From contig JAFTYI010000006.1 in assembly GCA_017464815.1 (NCBI GenBank), positions 1 through 64,000 of the forward strand: a stretch of 64,000 nt of DNA. The letters are read 5' to 3'. Position numbers and translations under genes: made by a program. How positions within the stretch are numbered: the first letter of the stretch is position 1; each line of letters starts with the position of its first letter. Positions 174-59,805 of this stretch are shown here, piece after piece. The stretch comes from Bacteroidaceae bacterium. GTDB lineage: Bacteria; Bacteroidota; Bacteroidia; Bacteroidales; Bacteroidaceae. Below the pieces are notes generated by a model. It searched no databases. It was not told where the DNA came from and worked only from the letters and a program-made list of their open reading frames with translations.

Positions 174-257
174 GACATCTTGATGTCGCACTCAACGACA
201 TCAAGTTCCCTCAAGCGGTGACATCTTGATGTCGTTCGAGGTGACATCTTGATGTCG
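174..257. repeat. 23-bp-period palindromic array behind trkH
   Basis: The palindromic unit GACATCTTGATGTC begins at 174, 220 and 243, and a decayed copy (GACATCAAG) begins at 197. All four starts are exactly 23 bp apart. The array ends about 20 bp from the trkH stop codon. The rest of positions 1-276 holds the terminator and, near 129-148, one copy of a dispersed motif (AATGACAGAGACCGTC) seen again near 12.6 kb. I see no gene there. Confidence 0.85.
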
Positions 258-276
258 TTTCAAGAAGCATCAAATC

Positions 277-1731
277 CTATCTTTTCCGCCAAAAGCCAGG
301 GGTAAGCAACAATAAGACACTGAACAGCTCCAGACGGCCGATGAGCATCAACAGGGCACTTACCCACTTGGCGGCATCGGGCAGATGTGCCCACGAATGG
401 ATGCCCGAACAACTGCCCAAGGCAGGACCCACGTTGCTCACACTGGAGACAACCACGCCGTAAGCATCCATGAAATCAAGGCCGAGAGCCATCATCAGTA
501 TCCACCCCACAAAAATGACCAACACGTAGAGGACAAAGAAGGCCAACAGGGTAATCTTGGCCTTGGAGTGGATGACGTGGCCGCTGATGCGCAAGGGGAT
601 GACGGCATTGGGATGTACGATGCGGAGGAACTCGTTGCGGGCAACCTTCAGCAACATGGCTATGCGCACACACTTGATGGCTCCGCTGGTGGAGCCGGCA
701 CAAGCGCCAAAATACATCACCACCGAAAGGAGGAACCACAGGACGGGAGGCCACAACATGTAGTCGGCCGACACGAAGCCGGTGGTCGTCTGCACAGAAA
801 CGACCTGAAAGAGGGCCTCACGGAAGGACTCCTCGAACTGCCCGCCACGCACGATGACCAATCCCAAGGCTATCACCAGCGTGAAGACCCCCACGAGGGA
901 GGCATACCAATGAAATTCAGTGTCGGAGAAGAGCTTGCCCACCCTCCCTTTGAAGATGGCAAGGAAAAGCAGGGTGAAGTTGATGCCCGAAAGGAACATG
1001 AAGAAGATGGTCACATACTCGATGTAGGCCGAGCCGAAAGCGGCTATGCTGGCATTGCGGGTGGAGAAGCCGCCCGTGGCAGTGGTGGCCATCGAATGGC
1101 AGATGCTGTCAAACGGCCCCATGCCTCCAGCCGCAAAAAACATGGCACACACGACGGTGAGCCCCAGATAGATGCTCCATATCCACTTGGCCGTCACCTC
1201 AATGCGCGGATGCACCTTGTCGTGACGGGGACCTGTGGCCTCGGCGGCAAACAGCTGCACACCGCCCACGCCGAAGACGGGCAACACGGCAATGGTGAAG
1301 AAGATGATGCCCAAGCCGCCTATCCACTGCGTCATGCTACGCCAGAAGAGGAGGCCGTGAGGAAGGGTCTCGATGTTGGGGAGGATGGATGCACCGGTGG
1401 TGGTGAACCCCGACATGGTTTCAAAGAAAGCATCGGAGATGGAGGGGATGTGGCCACTCAACACATAAGGCAACATGCCCACAAGGGAAAACACAACCCA
1501 CGAGAAGGAGACGATGATGTATCCGTCGCGACGGCTGAAGCGCTTCTCGGCACCACGGCCGATGTAGTTCAGCACCAAGCCGACGGCCAGAGCTACGCCG
1601 GCCACAATGACGAAGGGCCAGCGGTCGTCCTCGTCGTAATAGAATCCGAAGACCGAACAGAGGTCCAACAGCAACGACTCGATGTAGAGCAGGAAGCCGA
1701 GGATGCGGGCAATGATTTTCCAGTTTATCAT
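277..1731 (-). CDS. trkH: TrkH/KtrB family potassium transporter membrane subunit
   Basis: This is the potassium-conducting integral membrane subunit of a Trk/Ktr uptake system, which works with the cytoplasmic RCK protein TrkA encoded immediately upstream. The four pore-loop filter segments, each with its conserved glycine, are visible: TTTGAS at about 110-115, ATTATGGF at 215-222, TTTGF at 315-319 and SNVGPALG at 432-439. Hydrophobic segments run throughout. The length (484 residues) is normal for the family. The start MINWKII is the first Met of the frame. It lies 71 bp after the trkA stop, and the gap is filled by a 7-bp-period array, so the two genes are probably co-transcribed. Confidence 0.95.
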   Translation of the reverse strand: MINWKIIARILGFLLYIESLLLDLCSVFGFYYDEDDRWPFVIVAGVALAVGLVLNYIGRGAEKRFSRRDGYIIVSFSWVVFSLVGMLPYVLSGHIPSISDAFFETMSGFTTTGASILPNIETLPHGLLFWRSMTQWIGGLGIIFFTIAVLPVFGVGGVQLFAAEATGPRHDKVHPRIEVTAKWIWSIYLGLTVVCAMFFAAGGMGPFDSICHSMATTATGGFSTRNASIAAFGSAYIEYVTIFFMFLSGINFTLLFLAIFKGRVGKLFSDTEFHWYASLVGVFTLVIALGLVIVRGGQFEESFREALFQVVSVQTTTGFVSADYMLWPPVLWFLLSVVMYFGACAGSTSGAIKCVRIAMLLKVARNEFLRIVHPNAVIPLRISGHVIHSKAKITLLAFFVLYVLVIFVGWILMMALGLDFMDAYGVVVSSVSNVGPALGSCSGIHSWAHLPDAAKWVSALLMLIGRLELFSVLLLLTPGFWRKR

Positions 1732-1744
1732 ATTCTCAGTTATG

Positions 1745-1797
1745 AGCTACGAGTGACAGTGACAAGCTACGAGCTACAAGCTGCAAGCTACGAGTCA
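1745..1797. repeat. 7-bp-period array between trkA and trkH
   Basis: AGCTAC/AGCTGC cores begin at 1765, 1772, 1779 and 1786, exactly 7 bp apart. Another lies at 1745, with two degenerate units between. The array fills the gap between the trkH start and the trkA stop codon. It is not related in sequence to the arrays at the neighbouring genes. Confidence 0.75.
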
Positions 1798-1802
1798 GCA
1801 CT

Positions 1803-3140
1803 CTAAAAATATTTCTCAATCTTCTTGATCATTACGCCCGAACAGAAGACTACGACATGGTCGCCCGGACGGATGAGGGTGTTACCGGTGATGAGCTGCC
1901 CCTCGTCGTTGCGGATGAGTCCACCCAACGACACTCCCTTGGGTAATCCCAAGTCCTTCACCGGCTTGCGGGTGACGGGTGCATCCTCCTGCACGGTGAA
2001 CTCGGCCACGTCAGCGTTGGCCAGGGTGAGGCATTTCACATTGCTGACGTCGGCATCCAGCATCATCTGGTAGATGTGGCTGGCGGCAATCTGCTTCTTG
2101 TTGATGATGGTGCCGATGTCGAGTTCCTCGGCCATGTCGATATAATCGAGGTTTTCAATCTTGGCCACCGTTTTGCTCACGCCCAAGCGTTTTGCCGCAA
2201 GGCAGGCAAGCACGTTGGTTTCAGAGTTTTCGGTCAAAGCCACGAATGCGTCGTTATTCTCCAATCCCTCTTCCTTGAGCAAAGCAAGGTCGCGCCCGTC
2301 ACCATTGATTACCATCACACGGTTGTCCACCAACTCCGTCAGGCGGTTACACCGGTGACGGTCGCTCTCAATGATGGTCATCCTTATGTGGTCGGGGACG
2401 ATGTTGGCCGCACGCACGGCAATGCGTCCGCCTCCCATCACCATCACGTTGCGCACGTCGGGGTATTGTTCCTTGCCGGCAATCTTGCGGATGTAGGGGA
2501 TGTCCTCCTTCTTGGTCATGAAGTAGACGATGTCGTTCTCGTGAATCGAGTCGCTACCACGGGGGATAATGGTCTCGTTGCCGCGCTTGATGGCAACAAC
2601 GTGGTAGGGAAGACTGGCCGAACCCAATTCGTAGAAGGGAATGTCCAACACCTCGGCACCTTTGCGCAACTTCACGCCTAACAGCACCAAGGCACCGCCG
2701 CGCACCTCCCACCACTGGCGTATCCAGCTCATCTTCACGGCATCCACAATCTCCTTGGCGGCCAACATCTCGGGGAAGATGAGCGAATCCACTCCCATCT
2801 TCTTCCAAAACTCCTGATGCTTGGGCAAGAGGTACTCGTAGTTGTCGATGCGTGCCACCGTCTTGCGTGCGCCCAGGTTGTGGGCAATCATGCAAGCCGT
2901 CATGTTGCGGCTCTCGTCGGGAGTGACGGCGATGAAGAGGTCAGCGTCAGCCACGCCCGCATCCTTCAAACTGGCAATGGACGACGGCGAAGCCACCACG
3001 GTCATCAGGTCAAAGTCGTTGTCGAGCTTGCTCAGCCGCTCCTCACTTTCGTCCATCAGGATGATGTCCTGCCTTTCCCGCGAAAGCAGTTTGGCCAGGT
3101 GGGTGCCCACCTCTCCGGCTCCGGCAATGATTATTTTCAT
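1803..3140 (-). CDS. trkA: Trk system potassium uptake regulatory protein TrkA
   Basis: This is the cytoplasmic, nucleotide-binding regulatory subunit that gates the TrkH channel. The protein is a tandem duplication of the RCK module. The first Rossmann fold opens with GAGEVG at residues 7-12, followed by an acidic residue at the end of beta-2 (LMDESEE). A TrkA_C domain covers roughly 140-215, a second Rossmann fold begins near 231 (NVMVMGGGRI) and a second TrkA_C domain ends the protein. At 445 residues it has the usual length of two-RCK TrkA proteins. It lies between dxs and trkH on the same strand, probably in one operon. The dxs-trkA gap carries a 9-bp-period array. Confidence 0.95.
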   Translation of the reverse strand: MKIIIAGAGEVGTHLAKLLSRERQDIILMDESEERLSKLDNDFDLMTVVASPSSIASLKDAGVADADLFIAVTPDESRNMTACMIAHNLGARKTVARIDNYEYLLPKHQEFWKKMGVDSLIFPEMLAAKEIVDAVKMSWIRQWWEVRGGALVLLGVKLRKGAEVLDIPFYELGSASLPYHVVAIKRGNETIIPRGSDSIHENDIVYFMTKKEDIPYIRKIAGKEQYPDVRNVMVMGGGRIAVRAANIVPDHIRMTIIESDRHRCNRLTELVDNRVMVINGDGRDLALLKEEGLENNDAFVALTENSETNVLACLAAKRLGVSKTVAKIENLDYIDMAEELDIGTIINKKQIAASHIYQMMLDADVSNVKCLTLANADVAEFTVQEDAPVTRKPVKDLGLPKGVSLGGLIRNDEGQLITGNTLIRPGDHVVVFCSGVMIKKIEKYF

Positions 3141-3163
3141 AACTGTTTCTAATTAGATAGTGA

Positions 3164-3208
3164 CTATAGTCCCTATAGATACTATAGTTACTATAGGAAC
3201 TATATAGA
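3164..3208. repeat. 9-bp-period CTATAG array overlapping the dxs stop codon
   Basis: CTATAG palindromes begin at 3164, 3173, 3182 and 3191, and a variant (CTATATAG) at 3200. That is five units exactly 9 bp apart, each a 6-bp palindrome plus a 3-bp variable spacer. The last unit contains the final codons and the stop codon of dxs (stop at 3200-3202), so the array begins inside the gene end. Confidence 0.85.
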
Positions 3209-5107
3209 GGCTACACCTTTCAACGCTTTCACAATCCCCTCCTCATCCATGCCACAAAGGTGGTACAACTCTTTCACCGAACCGTGCTCTACGAAATGGT
3301 CGGGGATGCCCACGCGAGTGATGCGGGGAGTGAACCCGTGGTCGGCCATGTACTCAAGTACGGCGGCGCCCATGCCTCCACTCAGCACGCCATCTTCCAC
3401 GGTGACGATGCGGGTGAACCCTTCGCCCACCTCACGCAGGAGGTCAGCGTCCAGTGGCTTGAGAAAGCGCATATCATAGTGTGCAACGCTTTTTCCCGTC
3501 TCTTGTTCAAAGCAGGCAATGGCTTTGGCAGCCACGTTTCCGATGGGGCCAATGGTGAGCACGGCCATCTCTTTGCCCTCCTTCAAACGGCGGCCTTTGC
3601 CCACGGGAACTTCTTCGAGCGGGCATTGCCAATCGACCTTCACGCCGCGTCCACGGGGATAGCGGATGGCGAAGGGTCCCTTGTCGGGCAACTGGGCGGT
3701 GTACATCATCCGGCGCAGTTCGTGCTCGTCCATGGGTGAAGCGATGGTGAGGTTGGGGATGGGACGCAGATAAGCCAAGTCAAAGGCGCCGTGGTGTGTA
3801 GGGCCATCCTCGCCCACCAAGCCGGCACGGTCGAGACAAAGCACTACGGGGAGTTTCAGGATGGCAACGTCGTGGATAATGTTGTCGTAGGCGCGTTGCA
3901 TGAAGGATGAGTAGATGTTGCAGAAGGGCTGCATCCCATCCTTGGCCAAGCCGGCCGAGAAGGTGACGGCGTGTCCCTCGGCAATGCCCACGTCAAAAGC
4001 GCGGCCGGGCATGGCCTTCATCAGTATGTTCATCGAGCATCCGCTGGGCATGGCTGGTGTCACGCCTACGACGCGCGGATTCTCTCCGGCCAATTCGAGC
4101 AGGGTGCGTCCGAAGACGTCTTGGAAAAGGGGCGGCATTCCCTCGGTGTCAGTCACGATGCGTTCGCCCGTCTCCTTGTCAAATATGCCGGGCGCATGCC
4201 ACACGGTGGCCGCCTGTTCGGCAGGTGCAAAGCCCTTGCCCTTGGTGGTGTGGATGTGGAGCAGCTTGGGGCCTTCCATATCCTTGATGGCACGCAACAC
4301 CTGCACCAGATTTTTCACATTATGTCCATCCACAGGGCCGAAGTAGCGGATGTCCATACCCTCGAAGACATTCTGCTGATTGTTGAAGAGTGATTTAAGA
4401 CTGTTGTTGAAGCGAAGGATGCGCTTCTTCATCTTGTCGTTCAACCATCCCCACTCCATGAACTTCTGCGAGATGCGGTAGCGCCACAGATTGTACCATT
4501 TGCTGGTGTTCAGCTCCACCAGGTATTCCTTCAATCCACCCACGCTACGGTCGATGGCCATGTTGTTGTCGTTGAGGATAATCAGCAGGTTGTTGGGCGT
4601 GGTGGAGGCGTTGTTCAGTCCCTCGAAAGCGAGGCCGCCACTCATCGAACCGTCGCCGATGACGGCCACCACACGGCGGTCTTTCTCTCCCTTTTGGGTA
4701 GCAGCCACGGCCATACCCAATGCGGCCGAAATGGAGTTGCTTGCGTGTCCGCAGATGAATGCGTCGTATTCACTCTCTTCAGGCGAGGGGAAGGGACGTA
4801 TGCCGCCCAGCTTGCGATTGGTGCAGAAGGCGTCGCGACGGCCGGTCAACATCTTGTGTCCGTATGCCTGATGTCCCACATCCCACACGATGCGGTCGTA
4901 GGGGGTGTTGAAAACGTAGTGCAGAGCCACGGTGAGCTCCACCACTCCCAAACTGGAGCCGAAGTGACCGGGATTTTGCGACACTTCATCGATAATTTCT
5001 TGGCGAAGTTCGTTGCACACATCGGGCAACTGCTCGGGCTTCAAACGCTTCAAATCATCCGGCGTTTGGATGTCTTTCAACAGGTTATATGAGGTATTAT
5101 CATTCAT
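3200..5107 (-). CDS. dxs: 1-deoxy-D-xylulose-5-phosphate synthase
   Basis: DXS condenses pyruvate with glyceraldehyde 3-phosphate in the first step of the MEP isoprenoid pathway, using thiamine diphosphate. The family signatures are present: PGHFGSSLG near 47-55, GHQAYGHK near 78-85, the ThDP-binding GDGSMSGG (151-158) ending in NDNNMAID (179-186), and the transketolase-type pyrimidine-domain motif [15 protein letters not shown] later. At 635 residues it is full length. A TACATTTG -7 box on the minus strand at 5128-5135 supports the start at 5107. The gene heads a minus-strand run with trkA and trkH and is divergent from the GSCFA gene. Confidence 0.97.
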
Positions 5108-5127
5108 AATTGTTACAAATAATCGTG

Positions 5128-5135: not shown

Positions 5136-5156
5136 GCAAAATAACCTTAATATGAT

Positions 5157-13773: not shown

Positions 13774-13864
13774 ATTCACCATAAGGCTTATGAACGTTAT
13801 TCGTAAGGCTTATAGACATCGTTCATAAGGCTTATGCATTTTATCCATAAGGCTTATGGTGAAT
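13774..13864. repeat. 22-bp-period palindrome array in the HU-gene leader
   Basis: CATAAGGCTTATG begins at 13780, 13824 and 13846, and a variant (CGTAAGGCTTATA) at 13802. The four 13-bp palindromes are exactly 22 bp apart, separated by unrelated 9-bp spacers. The array is bracketed by ATTCAC on the left and GTGAAT on the right, in inverted orientation. It lies just downstream of the predicted start of transcription of the HU-like gene. Confidence 0.88.
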
Positions 13865-27072: not shown

Positions 27073-27215
27073 GATTCAATATTATTACGCGCGGAGGGCT
27101 ACTCCACCAATTTAAGGTGCAAAGTAACACAAAATCCGTCGGATAATCAAGAAGTTGGCGGATTATTCGCAAAAAACTCCGGCCAAGGTTCGCTTTTCAC
27201 CCGACCTCAACTCTA

Positions 27216-27360
27216 GGGATGAGGCAAGCTTAGCCTTGGGTTAAGGCAACCTTAACCTTGGGATAAGGCAGGCTTAGCCTTGGGATAAGGTTCCCTCAAT
27301 CGGCCACTGATGTCTCTTCTATCGGCCACTGATGTCTCCTCAATCAGTCACTGATGTCTC
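27216..27360. repeat. Two adjoining 22-bp-period arrays behind the pectate lyase gene
   Basis: The first array has units GGGATAAGGCaagcttaGCCTT beginning at 27216, 27238, 27260 and (partial) 27282, exactly 22 bp apart, with AAGGC...GCCTT inverted halves. The second array follows at once with ATCGGCCACTGATGTCTC units at 27299, 27321 and 27343, again exactly 22 bp apart but unrelated in sequence. The pair ends 15 bp from the pectate lyase stop. Together with a weak cysE promoter they fill the 300-bp gap 27073-27375. Confidence 0.87.
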
Positions 27361-27375
27361 CCCCTATCCCCTGCA

Positions 27376-48600: not shown

Positions 48601-51600
48601 TATATACAGTTCTTTAAAGAGATAGTCGTTTCCGTTATTGGAATTGATTTCTACTTTAAATAGCCAGTCAAGACTTGGTATATAGGTTAAAGTATGGCGT
48701 CCATTACCTAACCCGAGTCCTACGTATCCAAAAGCTGCTTCACCAATGGACTGAATAGAATTCCCTAATGTGACAGATTCCAATCCATAGCAATCGTAGA
48801 AAGCTTCGCTTGGAATAGTGGTTACAGAATTGGGAATCTCAATAGATTCCAAAGCCCTGCAATACATGAAAGCTCTTTCACCAATAGTCTGAAGAGAATT
48901 ACTCAAGGTGACAGATGTCAGATTGTTACAATTATAAAATGCTTCTCGTGAAAGAGTTGTTACAGAGTTGGGCATTTCGATGGAAGTCAATGAAGGATTA
49001 TCAGCAAAAGCTGCGAAACCTATGGTTTGGAGGGAATCTCCTAATGTAACGGATGATAAATTGTCACAAACGCGGAACGCTTGATCTGAAATAACCTTCA
49101 CTGAATTGGGAATCTCAACAGAGGTCAATGCCTTACAGTTATAGAAAGCACCAGCTCCAATAATATCTACTGAATTACCCAAAGAAAGAGTTGCTAATTT
49201 CTCACAACCGTTAAAAGCGTTGTCGCCAATCTTCTTCACTGAATTGGGAATCTCAACAGAGGTCAATGCCTTACAGTTATAGAAAGCACCAGCTCCAATA
49301 GTATCTACTGAATTACCCAAAGAAAGAGTTGCTAATTTCTCACAACCGTTAAAAGCGTTGTCGCCAATAGTTTCTACAGAATTAGGGATTACCAATGATT
49401 TTATTCCACGTCCATTAAAGATTCCACCAGGTATCTTTTTTACCGTATTAGGTACTTCCAAATCAACAATTTCTTCATTGTTCACACACAAGTTTGTAGC
49501 TGTTTCGAAGGGGCTTGACCGATACCCATCAAATTTGAATTCGTTGAAAAGAACCTCTAACTTTGCCACGTTAATTGTTAATGAATCGCATCCATTGAAG
49601 GCACAATAACCAAAATTACTTATAGAATCACCAAGCGTGATATACGATAAGTTTTTGCATCCACTAAATGTTTCTGTTCCGATACTTTTCACCGAATTAG
49701 GGATAGTTACAGAAGTAATACCTTCCGCGCCAAAGAAAGCATATGGAGAGATTTGAGTTACACCCTCGGGAATCACTAAATCCGTCACTTCCTCACCATT
49801 CAAGTAAAGGTGCTTGGCCTTTGAAAGCGGATTGGAATCTCCTCTTTCGAATCCACTATTACATAGGGTTGCTACATCGGTTACATGTACAGATGTTAAA
49901 GAAGGACAATTCTCAAATACTCCCCACTGGATATTTTTCACAGGGCCACCCATTGTCACTGTGGTTAAAGCCGCACAGTCATAGAACGCCCTATAACCAA
50001 TGTTCTCTACTGAGTTCCCAATAGACACAGTTGCTAATTTCGGCCAACCATAGAAAATATCCGCTCCAATCGTTCTTACCGAATTAGGAATGGTTATTGA
50101 GGTTACATTCTTACCAAAGTTATAGAAGAATCCGTTATGGATTTGTGTAACTCCTTCAGGAATCACCAAATCTGTCACTTCTTTTCCGTTTACATGCAAT
50201 TTGGAGGCGATACTGAAAGGGTTGCCAGCATGACCATATTGAATATTAAACATAGTCCCTAGTTTGTTTAGATTCACTGTTTGCAAGCTGTCACAACCAT
50301 TGAATGCAAATTCGCCAATCGTTCTTACTGAATCGCCCAATGTGATATGCGACAGATTGGTACAGAACTCAAAAACTCTGTCCTCAATAGTGACAACAGA
50401 ATTAGGAATGACAATTGATTTTAAATTCGTACATTTGTGGAAAGATCCTCCACCAATTGTGCGAAGAGAATCTCCCAACGTTACAGATTTCAAATTCGTA
50501 CATCCCAAAAATACATTACGTGGAAAAAATTTAATCGAATTGGGAACCTCAATAGCAGTCAAAGAAACACAATTCTGAAAAATTCCTTCACCGATGGTAT
50601 CTACCGAATTTTCCCATGATACAGAAGCTAACTTCGACCAATCATTAAAAGCATAATTATTTATCTTCTTTACTGATTTAGGGATAATTATTGAAGTTAT
50701 ATTCTTTCCGAATTTGTAGAACATTCCGCTCTTAATTTCTGAGATACTTTCAGGAATCACCAAATCAGTCACTTCTTTGCCATTCAGATGCAATTTGGAG
50801 GCTATGCTGAATGGATTACTGTTGCTATGACCGCATTGAATATTAAACATGGTTTCAAGGCTGTTTACATTTACGACTTGGAAACTATCACAGCGATTGA
50901 ATGCATAAGAATCAATAGATTTTACAGAATCTCCCAATGAAATATAAGATAGATTAGTACAATCTTCGAATGCTCCATATCCAATAGAGACAACGGAGTT
51001 GGGGAAAACCACAGATTTCAAACTTTTACATTCTCTGAAAGCATACTGTCCTATTGTCCGGAGAGAATCTCCCAAAACAACTGATGCAAGATTGGTACAA
51101 TTGCGGAACACTTCATTCGGGAATGCTTTTACCGAATTGGGTATTTTGATAGCAGTCAAAGCTGTACAATTTTGGAATGCGCTTGTTCCAATAGTTTCCA
51201 AAGAACTGCTTAATGTAACAGATTCCAAGTTTACTAACCCCATGAATGCACGGTCGCCAATCTTTACTACTGAATTGGGAAGAACGATAGACTTGATGTT
51301 CTTATACCCCTTGAAGAATCCTTCGTTGATTTCAGTGATGCCTTCGGGAATTTTCAGGCCTGTCACCTCTTCACCATTAAAGTAGAGATGCTGGGCAATG
51401 GTCAGCGGGTTGGCACTTTGGTTTTCAAAATAAATAGCATACCATGCATCTAAGTTGGTTACGTCCACTCGCTTCAAGCTGTCACAACCAGCGAAGGCAT
51501 TTGTTTCAATGCTGTCAATAGATTCACCAAAGGTAACGGAAGTCAAAGCTGTACAGCTTGCAAATGCAGAATTTCCGATTTTCTCTACGGAATCGCCTAA

Positions 51601-54600
51601 TTTCAGTGAAGTGATCTTGCTACCTTCAAAGAGGTGATCTTTAATCTCCTTGACGGTATTGGGCACTACCAATTCGGTAATCTCTTTACCATCTGAATAA
51701 AAATGCTTTGCTTTTGTAAGAGGGTTAGAATGATAGTCTCCAAATTCAATGTTGAACCAGTCTTCTAATTTAGCAATATGCACATCCTCTAACGAATCAC
51801 ATTGATAGAATGCATGATATCCAACAGTTGTTAAAGAATCACCAAAAGTAACAGAACGCAAATTCTTACATCCACCAAAGGCACGTTCACTCAGATATTT
51901 CAATGAATTTGGAAGTACAACCTTGGTCAATGATTTACTGCCTTCGAACATATGCCAACCATAAATTCCTTGAACTGAATTAGCAAATACCAAAGAGGTG
52001 ATGAAATCGTATCCGGAAAGGAGGTTTCCTCTCACTTCTGTGGCGCCATAAGGCTGAACATATTCAGTCACAAGCTTATCATCGCAATACAAACCTTTTG
52101 TTATTTTCGCAGGATTAGACGAATCTGAACCGAAATTAATCGCAAAATATGCCGCAGCATCAGTCACATCCACTCGGGACAGCTTTTCACATCCATTAAA
52201 TACATTATGCTCAATTGTTTTAATCTGATTTCCAAGTGACACTGATTCCAGATTGGTACATCCATCAAACGCATGGTCACCGATAAATGTCAATGGCTCG
52301 GGAAACTCAATAGATGTCAAAGAGGTACAACCCCTGAATGCTTCTCTACCAATACTCTCTAATGAACTGCTTAATGTAACAGACTCCAAGTTTGCTAATC
52401 CCTTGAATGCGCGGTCGCCAATCTTTACTACTGAATTAGGAAGAACAATAGACTTGATGTTTTCATACCCCTTGAAGAATCCTTCGTTGATTTCAGTGAT
52501 ACCTTCAGGAATCTTCAAACCTGTTACCTCTTCACCATTAAAGTAGAGATGCTGAGCAATGGTCAGCGGATTGGCACTTTGATTTTCAAAGTTAATGGCA
52601 TACCATGTATCCAAGTTGGTGACATCTACTCGTTTCAGACTATCGCAACCATTGAAGGCATAACTGCCGACAGAAGAGATGGCGTCACCGAAGGTAACGG
52701 ATGACAATTTGGTACAACCTTCAAAGGCCGCTTTCTCAATAGCTACCACCGTATTGGGAATAACAACGGATTCCAATCCCTTACAGTAGCGGAATGCACC
52801 TGCAGCAATGGTGTCCACTGAAGCACCCCAATTGATAGATGTCAATGCTGAACAGCCTTCAAATGCATTCTTTCCCGTTCTTTCCAATGTCACAGATTCC
52901 AACTTGGGCCAGTTCTGGAAGGCATAATCACCGACTTTAACTGAATTCGGGATAGTTACAGAAGTTACATTGTTTCCGAAATTATATAAGAAGCCTTTGT
53001 TTATTTCAGTAAGATATTCAGGTATAACTAAATCGGTAACTTCTTCACCACTCAGATGTAAATTAGAAGCGATGCTGAACGGATTACTGCCACTGCCGTT
53101 GCATGTGAGATTGAACATGGTCTCAAGACTATGTATATTCACAGTTTTCAGGCTGTCACAAAACCAAAAAGCACGGTCTCCTATGGTTTTTACAGAATCA
53201 CCTAATGTAACGTACGACAATGCATCGCAATCATGAAATACATATTCTCCTATACTTTTTACAGAAGTTGGAATAAACACAGAAGTAATGCTTGACGCAC
53301 CACTGAATGCATAATTGGATATATGAGTTACATCATCGGGAATAATCAACTCTGTAACCTCCTCTCCATTCAAGTAGAGGTGTTTTGCTATTGATAAAGG
53401 ATTGGAATTACCACCGCCAGAATTGTGGGATGCAAATTCAATGTTACACAAAGTACTGATATTGGGAACGTTCACTTTTGTCAATTTGTCACATCCACTA
53501 AATGGATACAACCCGACTGTTTTTATAGAATCTCCCAATGATATGGATTCCAATTCAGACCAATTCTGAAAAGCTCCACCATTTATACTTTTTACTGAAT
53601 TGGGGATAGTTACCGAAGTCACAATATTCCCAAAATTGTAAAAAAATCCTTGATTAATTTCTGTTACTCCTTCAGGAATTTCCAATTCTGTGATTTCTTT
53701 GCCGTTCAGATGCAACTTAGAGGCTTTGCTGAATGGGTTAGCATTGCTTCCACCGCATTGAATGTTGAACATGGTCAAAAGAGTGTTCACATTTACTGTT
53801 TGTAAACTATCACAGCCATTAAACGAACGAGAGCCAATAGATTTTACAGAATCTCCTAGTGTAATGTATGACAAATTGGTACAGAATTCAAAGACTCCAT
53901 CCTCAAGAGTGACGACAGAATTAGGAATGACAATGGATTTTAAATTTTTACATTCTTTGAACGAACCTCCAGCAATTGTACGAAGAGAATCGCTCAATGT
54001 TACAGATTGCAAATTAGTACATCCAAAGAATACATTACGTGAGAGCGCTTTTACCGAATTAGGAATTTCAACAGCGGTCAAAGAGGTACAATACTGAAAT
54101 GCTTCCGTTCCAATTGTTTCCAAAGAACTGCTTAATGTCACTGATTCCAAATTTGCCAATCCCTTGAATGCGCGGTCACCAATCTTTACTACCGAATTGG
54201 GAAGAACGATTGACTTGATGTTCTCATACCCCTTGAAGAAACCTTCGTTGATTTCAGTGATGCCCTCGGGGATAGTCAAACCCGTCACCTCTTCACCATT
54301 GTAATAAAGATGCTGAGCTATGGTCAGCGGGTTGGCACTTTGGTTCTCGAAGTTGATGGCATACCATGCATCCAAGTTGGTGACATCCACTCGTTTCAAA
54401 CTGTCACAACCATTGAAGGCATAGCTGCCGACAGAGGCGATGGCGTCACCAAATGTAACGGATGCCAATTTGGTACAACCTTCGAATGCTGCCTTCTCAA
54501 TAGCTACCACCGTATTGGGGATAACAACGGATTCCAATCCCTTACAGTAGCGGAACGCTCCCGCAGCAATGGTATCGACCGAAGCTCCCAAGGTGATAGA

Positions 54601-57600
54601 GGTCAATGCGGAACAACCTTCGAACGCGTTCTTACCCGTTCGTTCCAGTGTAACAGATGCCAACTTGGGCCAGTTCTGGAAGGCATAATCACCAACTTTT
54701 ACCGAATTAGGGATAGTCACGGAAGTAACATTGTTTCCAAAGTTATAAAGGAATCCTTTCTTGATTTCAGTGATGCTTTCAGGAATTACAAGGTTAGTCA
54801 CTTCTTCACCGTTGAGGTACAGTTTGGAGGCTTTGCAGAACGGATTACGATGTGATATATTTCCGTATTTCACAGAGTTCAGAACAGTTTCAAGACTGTT
54901 TACATTCATTGTCTTCAGACTGTCGCAATTATCAAATGCCCAATCACCAATAGTCTCTACGGAATTGCCCCATGTGATATATGCCAAATTCGTACAACCA
55001 TTGAATGCAGTACCTCCAATGCTTTTGACTGAATTAGGAATGGAAAGAGATGTGATACCCTTCGCATCAACAAAAGCAAATGGAGCGATTTGGGTTACAC
55101 CCTCAGGAATCACCAATTCTGTCACCTCCTCGTCATTCATGTAGAGGTGTTTGGCAATTCTAAGAGGATTAGAATTAACGTCTGTGTATGCAACATTACA
55201 CAATGCGGCAATATTTGTTGTATTTACTCTTGCCAACTTCTCACATCCGTTGAACACATTCTGCAGAATGGTCTTTATGGAGTCACCGAATGTAACAGCC
55301 TCCAAGTTGGAACATCCATCAAAAGCATTACGCCCTATAAGCTCCAACGAATTAGGGAATGTTACAGATGTTAATCCCGTTTTCTTAAAAGCCTCATATT
55401 CGATCGTTTTTACAGAATCACCAATGATTACCGTTGCCAAAGCAGAACAATTTTCGAACGCTCTATATCCAATTGTCTTCACAGAATTACCGATGGATGC
55501 GGATGTCAGTTTTGACCAATTTTGGAATGCATTACCACCGATTGTCTTCACCGAATTGGGAATAGTCACCGAGGTGATGTTTTCCCAAAAATTGTAGAAG
55601 AATCCGTTCTTAATCTCTGTAACACCTTCGGGGATTACCAAATCAGTGATCTCTTCACCGTTGAGATGCAGTTTGGTGGCAACAGTGAACGGATTACCAA
55701 GATGATTGTTACTTTTAAGATTGAATAGCGATACAAGACTCTTTACATTTACGGTCTGCAGTTTCTCACAACCATTGAAGGTGTATTCACCGATAGTCTC
55801 TACAGAATCACCCATTGTAATGTATGACAGATTGGAGCAGGATTCAAACACTCGATCCTCAATGGTCTTGACAGAGTTCGGAATGACAATGGACTCTAGG
55901 CTCGTACAATCATGGAATGAACCTCCACCAATTGTTTGCAGCGAATCGCCCAAGGTGACAGATGACAAACTCGTGCAACCATAGAACACATTGCGTGCGA
56001 ATGTCTTCACGGAGTTGGGAATGACGACAGCTGTCAAGGCCGTACAGCCCCTGAATGCATCCTCTCCAATACTCTGCAGGGAGTCGTTCAAGGTGACGGA
56101 CTCCAAATTCGTCAAATTATAAAAGGCACGGTAGCCGATTTTCTTGACGGACTTGGGGAGCGTTATTGATTTGATGTTTTCATATCCTTTGAAGAAACCT
56201 TCGTTGATTTCAGTGATACCCTCGGGGATGGTAAAGCCAGTCACCTCTTCATCATTGAAGTAAAGATGTTTGGCGATGACAAGCGGGTTGGCACTTTCAT
56301 TTCCAAAGTTGATGGCATACCATGCATCCAAGTCGGTCACATTCACCCGTTGCAAGCTGTTGCAACCATTGAAAGCATACTCTCCCACACTGTCTACAGA
56401 TTCGCTGAAGGTGACAGATGCCAGTTTGGAGCAACCTTCAAACGCTCTGTTCTCAATGACAACAACAGAGTTGGGGATAACGACCGATTCCAGTCCCGTA
56501 CAATTCTTGAATGCTCCCGCAGCAATGGTGTCCACCGAAGCGCCCAAGGTGATGGATGTCAATGCCGAACAGCCCTCAAAAGCGTTCTTACCCGTTCGTC
56601 CCAATGTAACAGATGCCAACTTGGGCCAATTTTGGAAGGCGTAATCACCGACATTCACCGACTTAGGAATAGTCACCGAAGTTACATTGTTTCCAAAGTT
56701 ATAGAGGAATCCCTTATTGAGTTCTGTGATGCTTTCGGGAATTACCAAATTGGTCACTTCTACCCCATTCAGATGTAGCTTGGAAGCCATCTTAAATGGA
56801 TTGTTATTTGTGGAATTACCATATTTTACAGAATTGAAAATGGTTTCAAGTTTGTTCACATTCACCGTTTGCAAATTGTCACAACCATTAAATGCATATT
56901 GTCCTATAGACTCTACAGAATCACCCAATGTAACGGATGACAAATTGGAACAATAGTAAAAAGCAGCATTCTCAATAGTAATTACGGAATTGGGAATATT
57001 AACAGCAGTCAAAGAAGAACAACGGTTAAAAGCATTATCTCCAATGATTTTTACTGAATCACCAATGGCTACAGAAGCCAATTTTGTCCAATTAGAAAAA
57101 GCAGAACTACCGATTTTCTTCACCGAATTGGGAATAGTCACCGAAGTGATGTCACTGCCCCAATTATAGAAGAATCCTTGCTTAATCTCTGTTACACCTT
57201 CGGGGATTACCAGTTCTGTAGTAATCTCTTCACCATTCACACTAAGTTTGGGAGCAATTTTGAAGGGGTTGCTATTACTATTCCCACATGTCACATTGAA
57301 CATTGTCAAAAGTGTGTTCACATCCACTGTTGTCAAACTGCTGCAACCATTGAACGCCCAATTGCCGATTGTCTTCACTGAATCTCCCAATGTGATGGAT
57401 GACAGATTGGTACAACCGTCAAATGCATATTCGCCAATGGTAGAAACCGGAATGGGGAGTTCTATTGTTGTCAGCGCTGTACAGCCCTTGAAGGCATTTG
57501 CTCCAATGCTTTTGACAGAATTGCCAATAGTCACGGAGGCCAACTTCGTCCAATCTTGGAAGGCGGCATCGCCAATGGTTGTCACCGAACCGGGGATAGT

Positions 57601-59169
57601 CAATGAAGTGACATTCTTGCCAAAGTTGTTAAAGAAGCCTTGGTTGATTTCCGTCATGCCATCCGGCAAGGTCAATTCTGTGACTTCCGTGTCAGCCACA
57701 TAGATATGCTTGGCCAACGTGAAAGGGTTGGACGAACCTTCGCCCCATGAGATGGCATCGCCGTACAAGATGGCAAACATACGGTCATTGCTTGAGACAT
57801 GGATTTTGCTCAAGTTGCTGCAACTCTTAAAGGCATCGTCACCGATGGAGGCTATGGCATCGCCCATGGTAAGTTCTGACAAACCTGTGCATCCCGAGAA
57901 TGCAGCCTTCTCAATAGTAGTGACTGTGTTGGGAAGAACCACCTTTGTCAGCTGGGTGAAGTTCTCAAACGCCCCCTCGGCAATGTTGACAGTTCCTTCA
58001 GTCACCTCGATGGCGGTGTTGGCCTCCATCGTACCCTTATATTTATAGAGCACCTTATTAATATATATAGGCCCGTCTTCTAAACCGTCATACCATGTAG
58101 TACCCGTGAAAGCGTCCTTACCGATGTGGGTTACTGACTCGGGAATTGTGATACCGACCAAGTTGGTTTGGTTCTTGAACGCACCTTCGGCGATACTGGT
58201 AGTACCTTCCTTTACAGCGATGGTTGTATTCTCCGGCATGTCACCTTTATATTGATAAAGGACGGAGCCGATATAGACAACATTGTCATCGGATTGATGA
58301 TTGCTTATCCATGCCGTATTTGCAAAGACATCCTTTCCCATATTGATAGAAGATTCGGGGAAAGTTACAGTGGCCAGATTGGTACATCCGTTGAAAGCAT
58401 TATCGCCAATGGACGTGACGGATGAGGGGATGGTAATGGAAGTTATGCTGGCAACATCTTTGAAAAATTCATTAGGTATTTCGGTTACACCGTCTGGTAT
58501 GACCAAGTTTGTCACCTCTGTTTCCCCGCCATTTTCATCCTTCACATAAATATGTTTGGCTATTGGCAAGGGGTTGGAACTGTAGCTGACAAATTCAATA
58601 TTGAAAAGGGTGCTGATATTGGGAAAAATCACTTTATTTAAGCTTGTACAGGAGCTAAATGTAGCTTCTTGAATGGACTTTATGGATTCTCCGAATGATA
58701 CCGATTCCAATTTGTCACATGATTGGAATGCACGAGTTTCGATAGTTTCTAAAGAATTAGGTAATTCCACTGATGTCAAAGCGGAACAATGATTGAATGC
58801 ATAGGCACTTATCGTCTTTACAGAATTTCCCAATTGTACCGTAGCCAGATTGGTGCAATTCTGAAAGGCTGCACTCCCAATGCTAACCACAGAATTAGGA
58901 ATTGTAACAGAAGTCAAGTTTGAACATCCGTTGAAAACCATATTCCCAATCGCTGTTACGGCATATTGGATTTCATTGTTGGTTACATTTTCGGGAATGA
59001 CAATGTTTCCCGCATACGGACTTTCTCCACTCACAACGGAGACCGTACTTTCCGACGTGATTTCATACGTGATGGAAACTCCATCATCATTCTCAACAGA
59101 GAATGTCTCTGCGAAACACGGCATGTTCATGAACATGGCCATGCTTAGAAAAAACAACATTTTTTTCAT
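45667..59169 (-). CDS. Giant BspA-type leucine-rich-repeat surface protein (4500 residues)
   Basis: A single uninterrupted 13.5-kb frame. A signal peptide (MKKMLFFLSMAMFMNMPCFA) is followed by LRR_5/BspA (Treponema pallidum-type) repeats of about 23 residues with the pattern SVTLGDSVKTIGxxAFxxC, to about residue 4050. After these come a Thr/Glu-rich linker, a beta module opening ITWEQEF (about 4145-4230) and a dockerin-like pair of calcium loops (4231-4285, GDANGNREINSADL and ADVNKDQRVNVADV). A cohesin-like domain (4308-4422) and a tail ending QGVYIIGKNKVIIK like T9SS sorting domains complete the chain. BspA proteins bind host matrix and other bacteria; this is an inference here. Long internal duplications are present, and the gene is clearly more AT-rich than the flanking genes. 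Confidence 0.93.
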   Translation of the reverse strand: MKKMLFFLSMAMFMNMPCFAETFSVENDDGVSITYEITSESTVSVVSGESPYAGNIVIPENVTNNEIQYAVTAIGNMVFNGCSNLTSVTIPNSVVSIGSAAFQNCTNLATVQLGNSVKTISAYAFNHCSALTSVELPNSLETIETRAFQSCDKLESVSFGESIKSIQEATFSSCTSLNKVIFPNISTLFNIEFVSYSSNPLPIAKHIYVKDENGGETEVTNLVIPDGVTEIPNEFFKDVASITSITIPSSVTSIGDNAFNGCTNLATVTFPESSINMGKDVFANTAWISNHQSDDNVVYIGSVLYQYKGDMPENTTIAVKEGTTSIAEGAFKNQTNLVGITIPESVTHIGKDAFTGTTWYDGLEDGPIYINKVLYKYKGTMEANTAIEVTEGTVNIAEGAFENFTQLTKVVLPNTVTTIEKAAFSGCTGLSELTMGDAIASIGDDAFKSCSNLSKIHVSSNDRMFAILYGDAISWGEGSSNPFTLAKHIYVADTEVTELTLPDGMTEINQGFFNNFGKNVTSLTIPGSVTTIGDAAFQDWTKLASVTIGNSVKSIGANAFKGCTALTTIELPIPVSTIGEYAFDGCTNLSSITLGDSVKTIGNWAFNGCSSLTTVDVNTLLTMFNVTCGNSNSNPFKIAPKLSVNGEEITTELVIPEGVTEIKQGFFYNWGSDITSVTIPNSVKKIGSSAFSNWTKLASVAIGDSVKIIGDNAFNRCSSLTAVNIPNSVITIENAAFYYCSNLSSVTLGDSVESIGQYAFNGCDNLQTVNVNKLETIFNSVKYGNSTNNNPFKMASKLHLNGVEVTNLVIPESITELNKGFLYNFGNNVTSVTIPKSVNVGDYAFQNWPKLASVTLGRTGKNAFEGCSALTSITLGASVDTIAAGAFKNCTGLESVVIPNSVVVIENRAFEGCSKLASVTFSESVDSVGEYAFNGCNSLQRVNVTDLDAWYAINFGNESANPLVIAKHLYFNDEEVTGFTIPEGITEINEGFFKGYENIKSITLPKSVKKIGYRAFYNLTNLESVTLNDSLQSIGEDAFRGCTALTAVVIPNSVKTFARNVFYGCTSLSSVTLGDSLQTIGGGSFHDCTSLESIVIPNSVKTIEDRVFESCSNLSYITMGDSVETIGEYTFNGCEKLQTVNVKSLVSLFNLKSNNHLGNPFTVATKLHLNGEEITDLVIPEGVTEIKNGFFYNFWENITSVTIPNSVKTIGGNAFQNWSKLTSASIGNSVKTIGYRAFENCSALATVIIGDSVKTIEYEAFKKTGLTSVTFPNSLELIGRNAFDGCSNLEAVTFGDSIKTILQNVFNGCEKLARVNTTNIAALCNVAYTDVNSNPLRIAKHLYMNDEEVTELVIPEGVTQIAPFAFVDAKGITSLSIPNSVKSIGGTAFNGCTNLAYITWGNSVETIGDWAFDNCDSLKTMNVNSLETVLNSVKYGNISHRNPFCKASKLYLNGEEVTNLVIPESITEIKKGFLYNFGNNVTSVTIPNSVKVGDYAFQNWPKLASVTLERTGKNAFEGCSALTSITLGASVDTIAAGAFRYCKGLESVVIPNTVVAIEKAAFEGCTKLASVTFGDAIASVGSYAFNGCDSLKRVDVTNLDAWYAINFENQSANPLTIAQHLYYNGEEVTGLTIPEGITEINEGFFKGYENIKSIVLPNSVVKIGDRAFKGLANLESVTLSSSLETIGTEAFQYCTSLTAVEIPNSVKALSRNVFFGCTNLQSVTLSDSLRTIAGGSFKECKNLKSIVIPNSVVTLEDGVFEFCTNLSYITLGDSVKSIGSRSFNGCDSLQTVNVNTLLTMFNIQCGGSNANPFSKASKLHLNGKEITELEIPEGVTEINQGFFYNFGNIVTSVTIPNSVKSINGGAFQNWSELESISLGDSIKTVGLYPFSGCDKLTKVNVPNISTLCNIEFASHNSGGGNSNPLSIAKHLYLNGEEVTELIIPDDVTHISNYAFSGASSITSVFIPTSVKSIGEYVFHDCDALSYVTLGDSVKTIGDRAFWFCDSLKTVNIHSLETMFNLTCNGSGSNPFSIASNLHLSGEEVTDLVIPEYLTEINKGFLYNFGNNVTSVTIPNSVKVGDYAFQNWPKLESVTLERTGKNAFEGCSALTSINWGASVDTIAAGAFRYCKGLESVVIPNTVVAIEKAAFEGCTKLSSVTFGDAISSVGSYAFNGCDSLKRVDVTNLDTWYAINFENQSANPLTIAQHLYFNGEEVTGLKIPEGITEINEGFFKGYENIKSIVLPNSVVKIGDRAFKGLANLESVTLSSSLESIGREAFRGCTSLTSIEFPEPLTFIGDHAFDGCTNLESVSLGNQIKTIEHNVFNGCEKLSRVDVTDAAAYFAINFGSDSSNPAKITKGLYCDDKLVTEYVQPYGATEVRGNLLSGYDFITSLVFANSVQGIYGWHMFEGSKSLTKVVLPNSLKYLSERAFGGCKNLRSVTFGDSLTTVGYHAFYQCDSLEDVHIAKLEDWFNIEFGDYHSNPLTKAKHFYSDGKEITELVVPNTVKEIKDHLFEGSKITSLKLGDSVEKIGNSAFASCTALTSVTFGESIDSIETNAFAGCDSLKRVDVTNLDAWYAIYFENQSANPLTIAQHLYFNGEEVTGLKIPEGITEINEGFFKGYKNIKSIVLPNSVVKIGDRAFMGLVNLESVTLSSSLETIGTSAFQNCTALTAIKIPNSVKAFPNEVFRNCTNLASVVLGDSLRTIGQYAFRECKSLKSVVFPNSVVSIGYGAFEDCTNLSYISLGDSVKSIDSYAFNRCDSFQVVNVNSLETMFNIQCGHSNSNPFSIASKLHLNGKEVTDLVIPESISEIKSGMFYKFGKNITSIIIPKSVKKINNYAFNDWSKLASVSWENSVDTIGEGIFQNCVSLTAIEVPNSIKFFPRNVFLGCTNLKSVTLGDSLRTIGGGSFHKCTNLKSIVIPNSVVTIEDRVFEFCTNLSHITLGDSVRTIGEFAFNGCDSLQTVNLNKLGTMFNIQYGHAGNPFSIASKLHVNGKEVTDLVIPEGVTQIHNGFFYNFGKNVTSITIPNSVRTIGADIFYGWPKLATVSIGNSVENIGYRAFYDCAALTTVTMGGPVKNIQWGVFENCPSLTSVHVTDVATLCNSGFERGDSNPLSKAKHLYLNGEEVTDLVIPEGVTQISPYAFFGAEGITSVTIPNSVKSIGTETFSGCKNLSYITLGDSISNFGYCAFNGCDSLTINVAKLEVLFNEFKFDGYRSSPFETATNLCVNNEEIVDLEVPNTVKKIPGGIFNGRGIKSLVIPNSVETIGDNAFNGCEKLATLSLGNSVDTIGAGAFYNCKALTSVEIPNSVKKIGDNAFNGCEKLATLSLGNSVDIIGAGAFYNCKALTSVEIPNSVKVISDQAFRVCDNLSSVTLGDSLQTIGFAAFADNPSLTSIEMPNSVTTLSREAFYNCNNLTSVTLSNSLQTIGERAFMYCRALESIEIPNSVTTIPSEAFYDCYGLESVTLGNSIQSIGEAAFGYVGLGLGNGRHTLTYIPSLDWLFKVEINSNNGNDYLFKELYIGKQPLTALEIPEKFTEAPILPLLYNSCITSLNTGNGLKILPKGRSEKITNLTLGSNLTKIEGEFPNALIVVSNATTPPTITKENDEDWSPFPKCLFDNGAYGVVVLLNPSDQNKYSTAKGWEGMQLTNQSNKVDVLVSTPGELSWEIIDKHNMAPAKVVGLTVRGEINDDDFEQMNLNMKSLLYLDLSNAKVNKVPNNAFDGKQQLLSLQLPSTTKVVGNYAFQGCHGIEELVLPTDLTEIGDGAFAGTNIETLDFNYALQKIGNRAFANTPLKEISFQNKVESIGSEAFQGCNLEQELYFSETLTSIGERAFEGQSGITGHLTIPESVTTVGQRAFSGTNISTVFISGKMTTLESSVFANCPQLNVVYIPDNITRINASAFQGCTSLKDLRLSQKVEEIEREAFRAIPIRSVSVPESVKTLREYTFADCANLRFATLPSTITSLEDGVFYNCRQLMNLTVKALTPPTVADNTFRGVNTDRCIVSIPTESKKEYALATYWGRFIQMRNDIVVQKKGNGSISFASGETAEEGNTPAPVTRATRAATNETESTVTTVEDGSSLYVPKDGTVRFYITPEEGEEIVSATLDGEDITSQIVDGVFVTTADKQSAELVVNFSELTKTAQVITWEQEFEQPVMVGDKITLNAAASSGLSVNFAFGNNESSQFANLSDNTLAIVKPGAIALIAQQKGDNQYASISTDVKYIQAYEYGDANGNREINSADLATTIDYAIGNDPQEFLFRAADVNKDQRVNVADVSGVVDIVLTAPATIDEAELMTRSTGEVLRGEMSANGLNVILSSNMGEYLTFQCDIRLSDDCLPKLDDAGNPIVTLRHSEAAGTQVAVARFVEEGCIRILLYSTDNTPMANNQAVTLLLESVSRNGDIEIENAGYSFRENGTIIYRPFEYGYVTGMESMEDVISSMKIKTQGEEISIYSPVDYQLPVTSVDGIVHMLDVKAGYNKFALKQGVYIIGKNKVIIK
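49097..49368 (-). repeat. Nearly exact 138-bp tandem duplication inside the giant gene
   Basis: The block beginning TTCACTGAATTGGGAATCTC at 49097 repeats at 49235, 138 bp (46 codons, two leucine-rich repeats) later. I count one difference over the shared block (AATAATATC against AATAGTATC, Ile to Thr). This is a very recent in-frame duplication. Confidence 0.85.
51290..56720 (-). repeat. 1.8-2.0-kb superrepeats inside the giant gene
   Basis: A block of several hundred residues containing GDYAFQNWPKL, TGKNAFEGCSALTSI, ASVDTIAAGAF and NPLTIAQHLY recurs. The DNA for its CCAACTTGGGCCA anchor lies near 52897, 54660 and 56613, about 1.76 and 1.95 kb apart. A fourth, shorter copy of the NQSANPLTIAQHLYFNGEEV part lies near 51.4 kb. 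The two copies nearest the 3' side are the most alike at DNA level. Confidence 0.8.
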
Positions 59170-59490
59170 AGGTTACTTATTTTGTTAGTTTTGATGTTCT
59201 TTTTCTCTCTCCGAAGAAGAGCAGACAAGGCGAAAATGAAATATCCTAAGTCCCTCGGGCAAAAAAGAAACGCAAGCACATCTTTGATGCCTTTGTCCAT
59301 TGAGGTCTTAGGATACCCGAAACTACAAAAGATTAAGATGCACCTGCGTACGCAGGCATCTGCCATCTTATTCTCATCGTAATTTCTTGAAAGTTCCTAA
59401 GTTTCAATGGACGATTAGAATAATAGCAAACGCTATACTTTTCCACAATGTCAGTTTTCAACACTCACCGCTGTGAACGATTGATGGGGC
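59170..59490 (-). other. Structured leader of the giant LRR gene
   Basis: About 320 bases separate a TATCTTTG box at 59491-59498 from the ATG. Three segments can pair in two exclusive ways. Segment B (59295-59315) pairs with C (59395-59412, two stems of 9 and 7 bp) or with A (59242-59253, 11 of 12 positions). A perfect CCTGCGTACGCAGG palindrome lies at 59343-59356 between B and C. A 44-codon frame starting at 59300 inside B ends at 59166 and overlaps the giant gene's ATG as ATGA. The stretch 59500-59690 upstream shows no gene. Confidence 0.45.
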
Positions 59491-59498
59491 AAAGATAC
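59491..59498 (-). promoter_or_regulatory. Putative -7 box of the giant LRR gene
   Basis: On the minus strand this reads TATCTTTG, an exact match, but no TTTG lies 19-20 bases upstream. It would give an unusually long leader of about 315 bases. Confidence 0.4.
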
Positions 59499-59696
59499 GT
59501 TTTAATTGTGAATTATTGATTATGAAATCTTATTTATTTTACAGAAAATGTTGCAGAACATGTTTTTACACCTTTTAGTAATAAATTTCGCGCTTCTATT
59601 TCATCCCTATTTCGTCAAAATGAAATGCCGCGTGAGGGGTGCGTGATTGCATATATATACAATGTAAAGATGAGGGGATGAGGTAAGGCACAAAGT

Positions 59697-59805
59697 GGTC
59701 AGCCCGTCTCCTCTCAAGTGGTCAGCGGCTAAGGTGTCCGACGGTTAGCCCGTGTCCTCTCGAGAGGTTAGCGGCTGACCTCTCGACACCTTAGCGGCTA
59801 AAGGG
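59697..59805. repeat. 23-bp-period array between the four-helix-bundle and giant LRR genes
   Basis: GGTCAGC/GGTTAGC/CCTTAGC cores begin at 59697, 59720, 59743, 59766 and 59789, five units exactly 23 bp apart. They are filled with variations of CCGTGTCCTCTCGAGA and GGCTAAGGTGTCC. Inverted halves (GGTTAGC...GACC, CTCTCGAGAG) are frequent. The remaining sequence from 59806 to 60128 is AT-rich with no gene I can support. Confidence 0.87.

Follow-up and report, generated by a model that had tools for sequence, protein, structure and literature searches.

The tandem arrays analysed here lie in a 64,000-nucleotide stretch of a Bacteroidaceae genome (assembly GCA_017464815.1, contig JAFTYI010000006.1, positions 1 to 64,000; hereafter the window), and repeat their units at a pitch of 22 or 23 bp. 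Their spacing is constrained beyond their sequence, because arrays of this kind sit in elements of locked length, are exchanged as modules, and hold unrelated palindromes in one phase. We consider it an even bet that several families of dispersed intergenic elements, non-coding and found in the Bacteroidaceae, have these arrays as their working cores and are spacing-sensitive, protein-bound and mobile. A wider reading is offered tentatively and with more doubt: a two-turn lattice with exchangeable palindrome modules, on which near base-exact spacing is selected over sequence and which is served by fast-evolving dimeric readers across the Bacteroidaceae. If it were true, architecture would be inherited while letters turn over. 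Non-coding DNA normally accumulates insertions and deletions (indels), yet copies of only 70-80% identity hold their length here nearly to the base; such a length lock, with exceptions near half or whole pitches, would be an uncommon sign of selection acting on DNA geometry. It would also give a way to test for a DNA-binding or mobilising system of abundant gut bacteria, and would caution that platforms like these are classed as minisatellites by tandem-repeat callers.

The window comes from contig C37 of its own genome (2.63 Mb, 79% complete), which was compared within a genus set of 15 genomes, itself included; G numbers denote other genomes, C numbers contigs, and L numbers loci. By trkH, the six nearest named relatives are Bacteroidaceae metagenome-assembled genomes (MAGs) from the guts of sheep, goat, water buffalo and roe deer. 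A first-pass annotation of the window had described five arrays with unit starts on exact multiples and mutually unrelated sequences. The exact multiples are borne out for all five, none of which is assigned to a strand. Array 1 (174..257), 3' of trkH, has a 23-bp pitch, with GACATC at 174, 197, 220 and 243 and the palindrome GACATCTTGATGTC, of which a single unit retains just one half-site; its relatives in the own genome are on contigs C39, C56, C42, C24, C49 and C15. Array 2 (13780..13858) consists of four CATAAGGCTTATG-type palindromes at a 22-bp pitch (13780, 13802, 13824 and 13846) with diverged spacers, the whole array being an inverted repeat; it stands upstream of an HU-family (HU-HIG) gene, at a distance of about 60 bp, and, on both strands among the 15 genus genomes, matches nothing but itself. 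Arrays 3a (27213..27290; GGGATAAGGCAAGCTTAGCCTT, with GGGATAAGGC-type sites at 27216, 27238, 27260 and 27282) and 3b (27294..27361; ATCGGCCACTGATGTC-type, ATCGGCCACTGATGTC / ATCAGTCACTGAT) both have a 22-bp pitch, and as a pair they partly recur at two further sites of the own genome (C15:24966-25103 and C39:43324-43442). Alone, array 3a has a large family there, with at least 40 matches, and is of one family with the second array in the element holding array 4 (59697..59805; 23-bp pitch, GGTCAGC or GGTTAGC at 59697, 59720, 59743 and 59766). The sequences are therefore not all unrelated, 3a being kin to that second array, while array 2 seems unique; four of the five are members of dispersed families. 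Tandem Repeats Finder also recovers the window arrays, array 1 from 220 only and array 4 additionally as a 46-bp double unit.

The claimed excess of 22- and 23-bp periods is real, and periods are not evenly spread. One scorer was used for all samples (ungapped, periods of 10 to 60 bp, counting arrays mostly outside open reading frames (ORFs) of at least 80 amino acids), with the caveat that the non-coding masks are rough ORF calls, most genomes are MAGs, and the controls outside the Bacteroidota are small. The own sample of 452.8 kb, window included, is non-random, contigs C42, C39 and C24 having been chosen in the knowledge that they carry sequence like array 1; it holds 42 non-coding arrays, 12 at 22 bp and 8 at 23 bp (34, 9 and 7 when the window is left out). 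The near-complete, array-rich congener G009, sampled over 600 kb of stretches picked blind from the contig start, holds 31, with 24 at 22 bp and one at 23 bp, so that 22-23 bp is the most frequent period in both (20/42 and 25/31). Samples of named relatives, which are trkH neighbourhoods throughout and not random DNA, gave 18 arrays for Bacteroides and kin (7 at 22 bp, 6 at 14 bp), 25 for Prevotellaceae and kin (5 at 22 bp, 8 at 14 bp) and 2 for Phocaeicola-like genomes (1 at 22 bp); G019 has 3 arrays, 1 at 22 bp. No array of 22-23 bp was found in the samples of G022 (0 arrays), G026 (7) and G032 (1), and none of any kind in 200 kb of Escherichia coli K-12 and 50 kb of pSymB. Three letter shuffles of the identical gaps yielded no arrays at any period for the own genome and none at 22-23 bp for any sample. 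The autocorrelation of intergenic DNA that the first-pass annotation had proposed, made on the sampled stretches, agrees: in own non-coding DNA lag 22 is highest (380 positions vs 1.0 shuffled), followed by lag 23 (256 vs 4.7). Lag 22 also ranks first in G009 (200 kb), G019, and the Phocaeicola-like and Prevotellaceae samples, and second after 14 in the Bacteroides sample and the six closest MAG loci. Within these samples the excess is lineage-bound, and it is not a trait of the whole order, because the samples of G022, G026 and G032 are without it. In another family of the order, about twelve 21-bp units stand at G026:C3 from 29685 (L371-L372); 21 bp may be a sister pitch.

Every element carries at least one array, made of short palindromes or of half-sites in alternation, at the 22-23 bp pitch. 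The best-studied family is that of array 4, in which whole elements measure about 500-580 bp and are found again, with recurring ends, at unrelated intergenic sites. By copy comparison, array 4 lies in a dispersed, non-coding element of 531 bp on the forward strand (59562..60092), which we call subfamily I. The layout is a left end motif (CTTTACA-N6-AGTAATAAATC, 59562..59585, forward strand, matched by the window copy at 16 of 18 letters), a leader with the AT palindrome TTGCATATATATACAA (59647..59662, no strand), the 23-bp array, a middle part with paired TGTATAAATATACA-type palindromes (TGTATAAATATACA / GCATATTTATGCA, 59848..59880, no strand), a 22-bp array of type 3a, and a presumed right end, ATATTTACA (60084..60092, forward strand), whose nine letters were chosen by eye 531 bp from the left end. 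The AT palindrome is centred 91.5 bp from the start of the left motif; two other copies of subfamily I have it at the same distance, as do the consensus sequences of subfamilies II and III, described below. A 201-bp query around array 4 finds 17 more places in the own genome, 15 of them at 88-93% identity over nearly the whole query, and one full copy has 60 own matches of any length. The window copy aside, 14 full copies have unrelated left flanks, and all are 531-533 bp long at 78% identity; their alignment of 534 columns has 302 variable columns and only 4 gapped ones. Right ends in this measure were set by eye, L326, L327, L331 and L332 were measured separately, and C21 was excluded. An automatic scorer gives 311-312 bp from left end to anchor in 15 of 15 copies, including the window copy (311), and 218-221 bp from anchor to right end in the 14 full copies. 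Across these homologous copies, the window copy among them, the first array has a constant number of units. Divergence is lowest in the array (0.067, vs 0.226 in the leader). Coding constraint as the cause of indel scarcity was rejected, since every one of the 14 copies has stop codons in each of the six frames. From column 396 on, the window copy is only about 46% identical to the others, yet MAFFT adds no extra gap; that it ends exactly 531 bp from its left end is suggestive only as a case of the length lock, because the letters had been seen before measuring and the full end pattern is unrecognised. Divergent relatives have left and right parts of 309/219 (L326), 310/196 (L327) and 310/206 bp (L331).

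When a full copy was searched through the 15 genomes, some places matched the left end and the right part only. These define sister subfamilies with shared ends, unrelated sites of 22-bp pitch, and a left-part length of their own: subfamily II, with TTTAGGAG sites, in the own genome, one G006 locus and one metagenomic contig, and subfamily III, with GTGTGCACAC palindromes, in G005 and one G012 locus. The left part of II measures 363-366 bp in 15 of 16 recognised copies, those of G006 and the metagenomic contig included (exception L429, 352), and that of III 294-297 bp in 19 of 21 (exceptions L394, 285, and L403, 305). At an end score of at least 14 of 22, the right part is 218-219 bp in 14 of 15 copies of II (exception L438, 206) and 217-219 bp in 9 of 13 of III (the rest 206, 215, 241 and 242); values of 77-79 came from inner look-alike matches and were replaced by a bounded-search measure. 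The left part of II has 4 gapped against 283 variable columns (12 copies, 70% identity) and that of III 4 against 202 (18 copies, 81% identity), among copies preselected by left length (355-370 and 290-300 bp, respectively). This filter excluded L429 (352) and L435 (left end unrecognised); the contigs of L415 and L418 lack the left end, and L394 (285) and L400 (295) were not entered. As a yardstick, the CTTAAG family (9 copies) has 29 gapped and 96 variable columns among the 180 of its leader, and 0 gapped and 32 variable among the 101 of its array. The consensus palindromes of III are centred at 139.5, 161.5 and 228.5, with gaps of 22 and then 67 bp, about three pitches. Length departures are mostly near 11-12 or 22-24 bp, that is, near half or whole pitches (-11 in L394 and L429; -12 in L423, L331 and L438; -22 in L327 and L332; +23/+24 in L408 and L400), which would fit helical phasing; the pattern is a lead, not a result, because end scores of 12-13 are near noise.

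In G009, nearest neighbours of the same palindrome class stand 22 bp apart 65 times in class A, 25 times in class B and 16 times in class C, the other listed distances occurring once or twice each. Nine of the 10 neighbouring A/B pairs within 100 bp are at 21.5 or 22.5 bp, the half-base offsets arising from odd vs even palindromes, and one is at 92.5 bp; the independent junctions are fewer than nine, because several are copies of one composite. The three A/C pairs are at 54, 65 and 72 bp. Nine of 21 class-A clusters have an identical unit order, in either orientation, and the arrays of this genome are embedded in larger mosaics. A test for a common phase of dissimilar pairs is clear only in G009 (31/63 vs 8.9 expected, pairs non-independent); it gave 1/12 in the own genome, 4/17 in Bacteroides, 1/9 in Prevotellaceae, and 3/5 in E. 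coli (p 0.023), where numbers are too small to read. A further class, TATCTCTTAAGCGATA, is dispersed in G012, G013, G006, G002 and G005; its core mostly measures 97-98 bp. A single ancestral sequence for all arrays was rejected, since classes A, B and C of G009 and the subfamily arrays share no evident core.

What would hold such a pitch is most simply pictured as a row of dimer sites. Each palindrome would bind one dimer of a sequence-specific protein, and adjacent dimers, two helical turns apart on one face of the DNA, would touch; a small shift would break the assembly, while the recognition letters would be free to co-evolve with the protein. Copies would spread as non-autonomous, transposon-like elements with the help of a separate enzyme, a movement suggested by their dispersal, left ends and synteny breaks. 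Such a row would account for palindromy, pitch, free letters and indel intolerance inside the arrays. It fits the lock on leader and tail less well, unless they too hold phased sites, as the AT palindrome suggests by its constant position at 91.5 bp in three subfamilies. The first-pass annotation had read the arrays as suggesting a process or a constraint that acts on spacing, and not shared descent. A constraint does outlive sequence, as the phase in G009 and the length lock indicate, but dispersed families account for four of the window's five arrays. The same fact, with the kept unit number, leaves fixed-length copying anew at each site, one of its two candidates, unsupported; the other, phased protein sites, stays the best, with a DNA-binding protein in that role. 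The outcome that it named as refuting, copies of known insertion-sequence or repeat families, is half borne out: they are repeat families, but Rfam, scanned for seven loci, gave no match above threshold, and in the full-text searches BrickBuilt, described below, was the only similar kind.

Several observations weigh against the reading of the arrays as protein-bound, mobile cores. It gives only a weak account of array 2 and of palindromicity in many arrays. A palindrome test of consensus units, which omitted arrays outside the gaps between called ORFs, is positive at p<=0.05 in 20 of 44 arrays, and in the own genome in just 5 of 18. In the window, 3a and 3b are out of phase, their nearest centres being 32 bp apart by hand count; 22-23 bp slightly exceeds two turns of B-DNA (21 bp); and the left lengths 311, 363 and 296 are not multiples of 22 apart. 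The length lock has its lapses in L403 (9 bp long), L332 (weak left end at 333, right part 196) and L402 (left part 251, 60 short). In the window copy, the automatic scorer does not recognise the full right-end pattern (best score 11/22, elsewhere), and copies within a family share a history and are not independent events. No binding protein and no transposase is tied to the elements. Among the 14 copies there is no target-site duplication of the kind that marks DDE-type miniature elements (12-bp outer flanks share a mean of 2.86 within vs 3.03 between copies), no terminal inverted repeat was seen by eye, a dedicated search not having been made, and two copies on a C7 stretch offer no clean empty site, because both sit where synteny breaks. 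As to vehicles, one full copy was unmatched in 72,556 plasmid records, and phages were likewise without a match; among viral contigs, one exact anchor match is a copy of subfamily II (left part 363-364, right part 205-206 vs the usual 218), which is possibly host DNA.

Among other explanations we give a minor but real share to mobile elements of the REP type, or other HUH-transposase elements, in which a Y1 tyrosine transposase cuts and joins palindromic hairpins of single-stranded DNA close to the ends and leaves the target unduplicated. The missing duplication would fit, as would the lack, by eye, of terminal inverted repeats, and the ends, CTTTACA...GTAATAAATC on the left and, in subfamily I, TTTCCTTACAT...AAATRTTTACA on the right, which by eye carry TTTACA in direct, not inverted, orientation. 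A single-copy protein of 343-345 amino acids exceeds the Pfam Y1_Tnp cut-off in G000, G005 and G013, which are among the top four genomes for matches to the 531-bp family, and in G000 and G005 it weakly resembles REP-associated tyrosine transposases (RAYTs), below the NCBIfam cut-off. The correlation is confounded, however, because the gene-bearing genomes are close relatives; PF01797 is present in 5 of the 15 genus genomes, the own candidate lying under the NCBIfam cut-off. G009 has no PF01797 match, though its arrays are of other families, end motifs of the 531-bp family are absent within 1.5 kb of the five Y1 loci, and the sites form arrays, not REP pairs. The RAYT-like protein of 345 amino acids is a weak candidate for the mover. 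In G008, one of these Y1 loci has an IS200-type transposase gene with a 22-bp array (L333:272-349) at a distance of about 1.1 kb. Somewhat less probable again is action at the RNA level, with the palindromes as tandem hairpins in a transcript. In some copies of the 531-bp family the second array forms long hairpins with differing complementary arms (CTTAGCCTTGGGATGA/TCATCCCAAGGCTAAG; CTCAGCCCATGGATGA/TCATCCATGGGCTGAG), and a T-run lies close to the right end; but compensatory arms are expected of dimer sites too, near base-exact length is unusual for RNA loops, and the class A and B palindromes of G009 are AT-rich. When the 14 copies are folded to a consensus, covariation contributes just -1.96 kcal/mol, with two-sided change in 10 of 114 pairs; the RNA reading accounts neither for covariation as weak as this nor for the length lock. 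Across seven loci nothing exceeds the Rfam gathering score, four weak microRNA-family matches falling below it (one at E 0.00031, 38 bits vs a threshold of 100); with the scarce covariation, a known RNA family was rejected.

Plain minisatellites, in which slippage multiplies units and the period of 22-23 bp is a by-product, seem to us very improbable. Near-identical units do occur (five at L171:11412-11532), and the shortened left part of the related copy L402 is what slippage might leave, but neither the fixed unit number in 14 homologous copies nor one phase across unrelated palindromes is explained by it, periods are concentrated, and the class-A clusters share a unit order as given above; for subfamily I this reading is largely refuted. 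We lend just as little credence to arrays of gene-specific operators, every array answering to a separate regulator that controls the adjacent gene. Array 2, seemingly unique and upstream of its HU-family gene, would suit it, as would the operator-like palindromes; against it, the same class occurs at many sites, the neighbours have no common function, and 13 of 24 G009 arrays lie between convergent genes (24% of gap bases), a bias weaker in the own genome (5/18) and the named loci (4/16). No shared regulon was seen among 68 neighbour proteins (67 of 73 listed, four long frames and two overlapping ones having been dropped, plus window:13919-14338 added by hand), no Pfam family being matched more than twice. 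HU-HIG proteins, which may be considered as binders, account for two of the 68, one of them hand-added and the figure having no background count.

The proposed elements can also be set beside known systems. The short palindromes of REP/BIME and REPIN, associated with RAYT transposases, are dispersed and extragenic and make no target duplication, and so far resemble the sites described here; ours, however, form ordered arrays at a fixed pitch of 22-23 bp inside longer, length-locked elements, and they are only weakly linked to RAYTs. At plasmid origins, iteron arrays present several protein sites about 22 bp apart on one face of the DNA, with AT-rich palindromes nearby, a layout that our arrays would share, but the latter are chromosomal, dispersed beside ordinary genes, and made of palindromic, not direct, sites; among the neighbour proteins no family exceeded two, and no search aimed at replication initiators was made. 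CRISPR arrays share a constant core and variable spacer at fixed pitch, and are set apart by layout, our cores being about 12-18 bp, our spacers under 12 bp, and the arrays many, short and dispersed. The nearest published kind that we found is BrickBuilt, a miniature inverted-repeat transposable element of Porphyromonas gingivalis. As described, it is intergenic, has 19 copies in ATCC 33277, and carries a tandem 23-nt core between leader and tail, with small inverted-repeat ends; its imperfect repeats form one family, their number (1 to 22.8) sets the length (84-991 nt), and no Rfam match and no BLASTn match outside P. gingivalis is given there (PMC4596501). Compared by this description, the 531-bp family is likewise an intergenic 23-bp array between conserved left and right parts in Bacteroidales, but the number of units and the length hardly vary, subfamilies that share ends differ in the sequence of their arrays, and several families coexist. 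Full-text searches, with subscription papers mostly outside their scope, returned no account of a common 22-bp pitch kept while sequence varies freely, and there is a fair chance that the spacing lock sets these elements beyond known array-bearing intergenic repeats.

Some features of the neighbourhoods may be added. Synteny blocks end beside arrays and elements, as if these were rearrangement sites (window 13704 and 27175; L338 at about 2606-3298 and 13652). Short inserts at L343, L349, L350 (own L338:11273-11288), L346 and L348 (own L338:3799-3808) are missing at the orthologous own sites; they have inverted tandem 8-bp units at both ends (TAATGTGC ... GCACATTA), with a copy number that varies between species. 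A further insert, L347 (G012:C45, about 63826-64368; short form at own L338:5808-5834), holds a gene that by eye resembles the family of 23S rRNA intervening-sequence proteins, and is flanked by inverted arrays of 7-bp units (TTCAAGG ... CCTTGAA). A frame at window 60129-61019, overlapping 9-bp repeats, has a weak match to a 23S rRNA intervening-sequence protein, below the Pfam cut-off. Window 1-141, which contains a strong hairpin with a T-run behind it, is shared at 99-100% with several contig ends and is likely the end of an assembly-breaking repeat. At window 12560-12660 lies an inverted pair of the CATTCTGA..GAAGAATCTG type, whose relatives occur many times in sister genomes. Finally, window 45667-59169 is an open frame of 4500 amino acids, of which the 723-amino-acid stretch scanned (57000-59169) matches BspA-type leucine-rich repeats.

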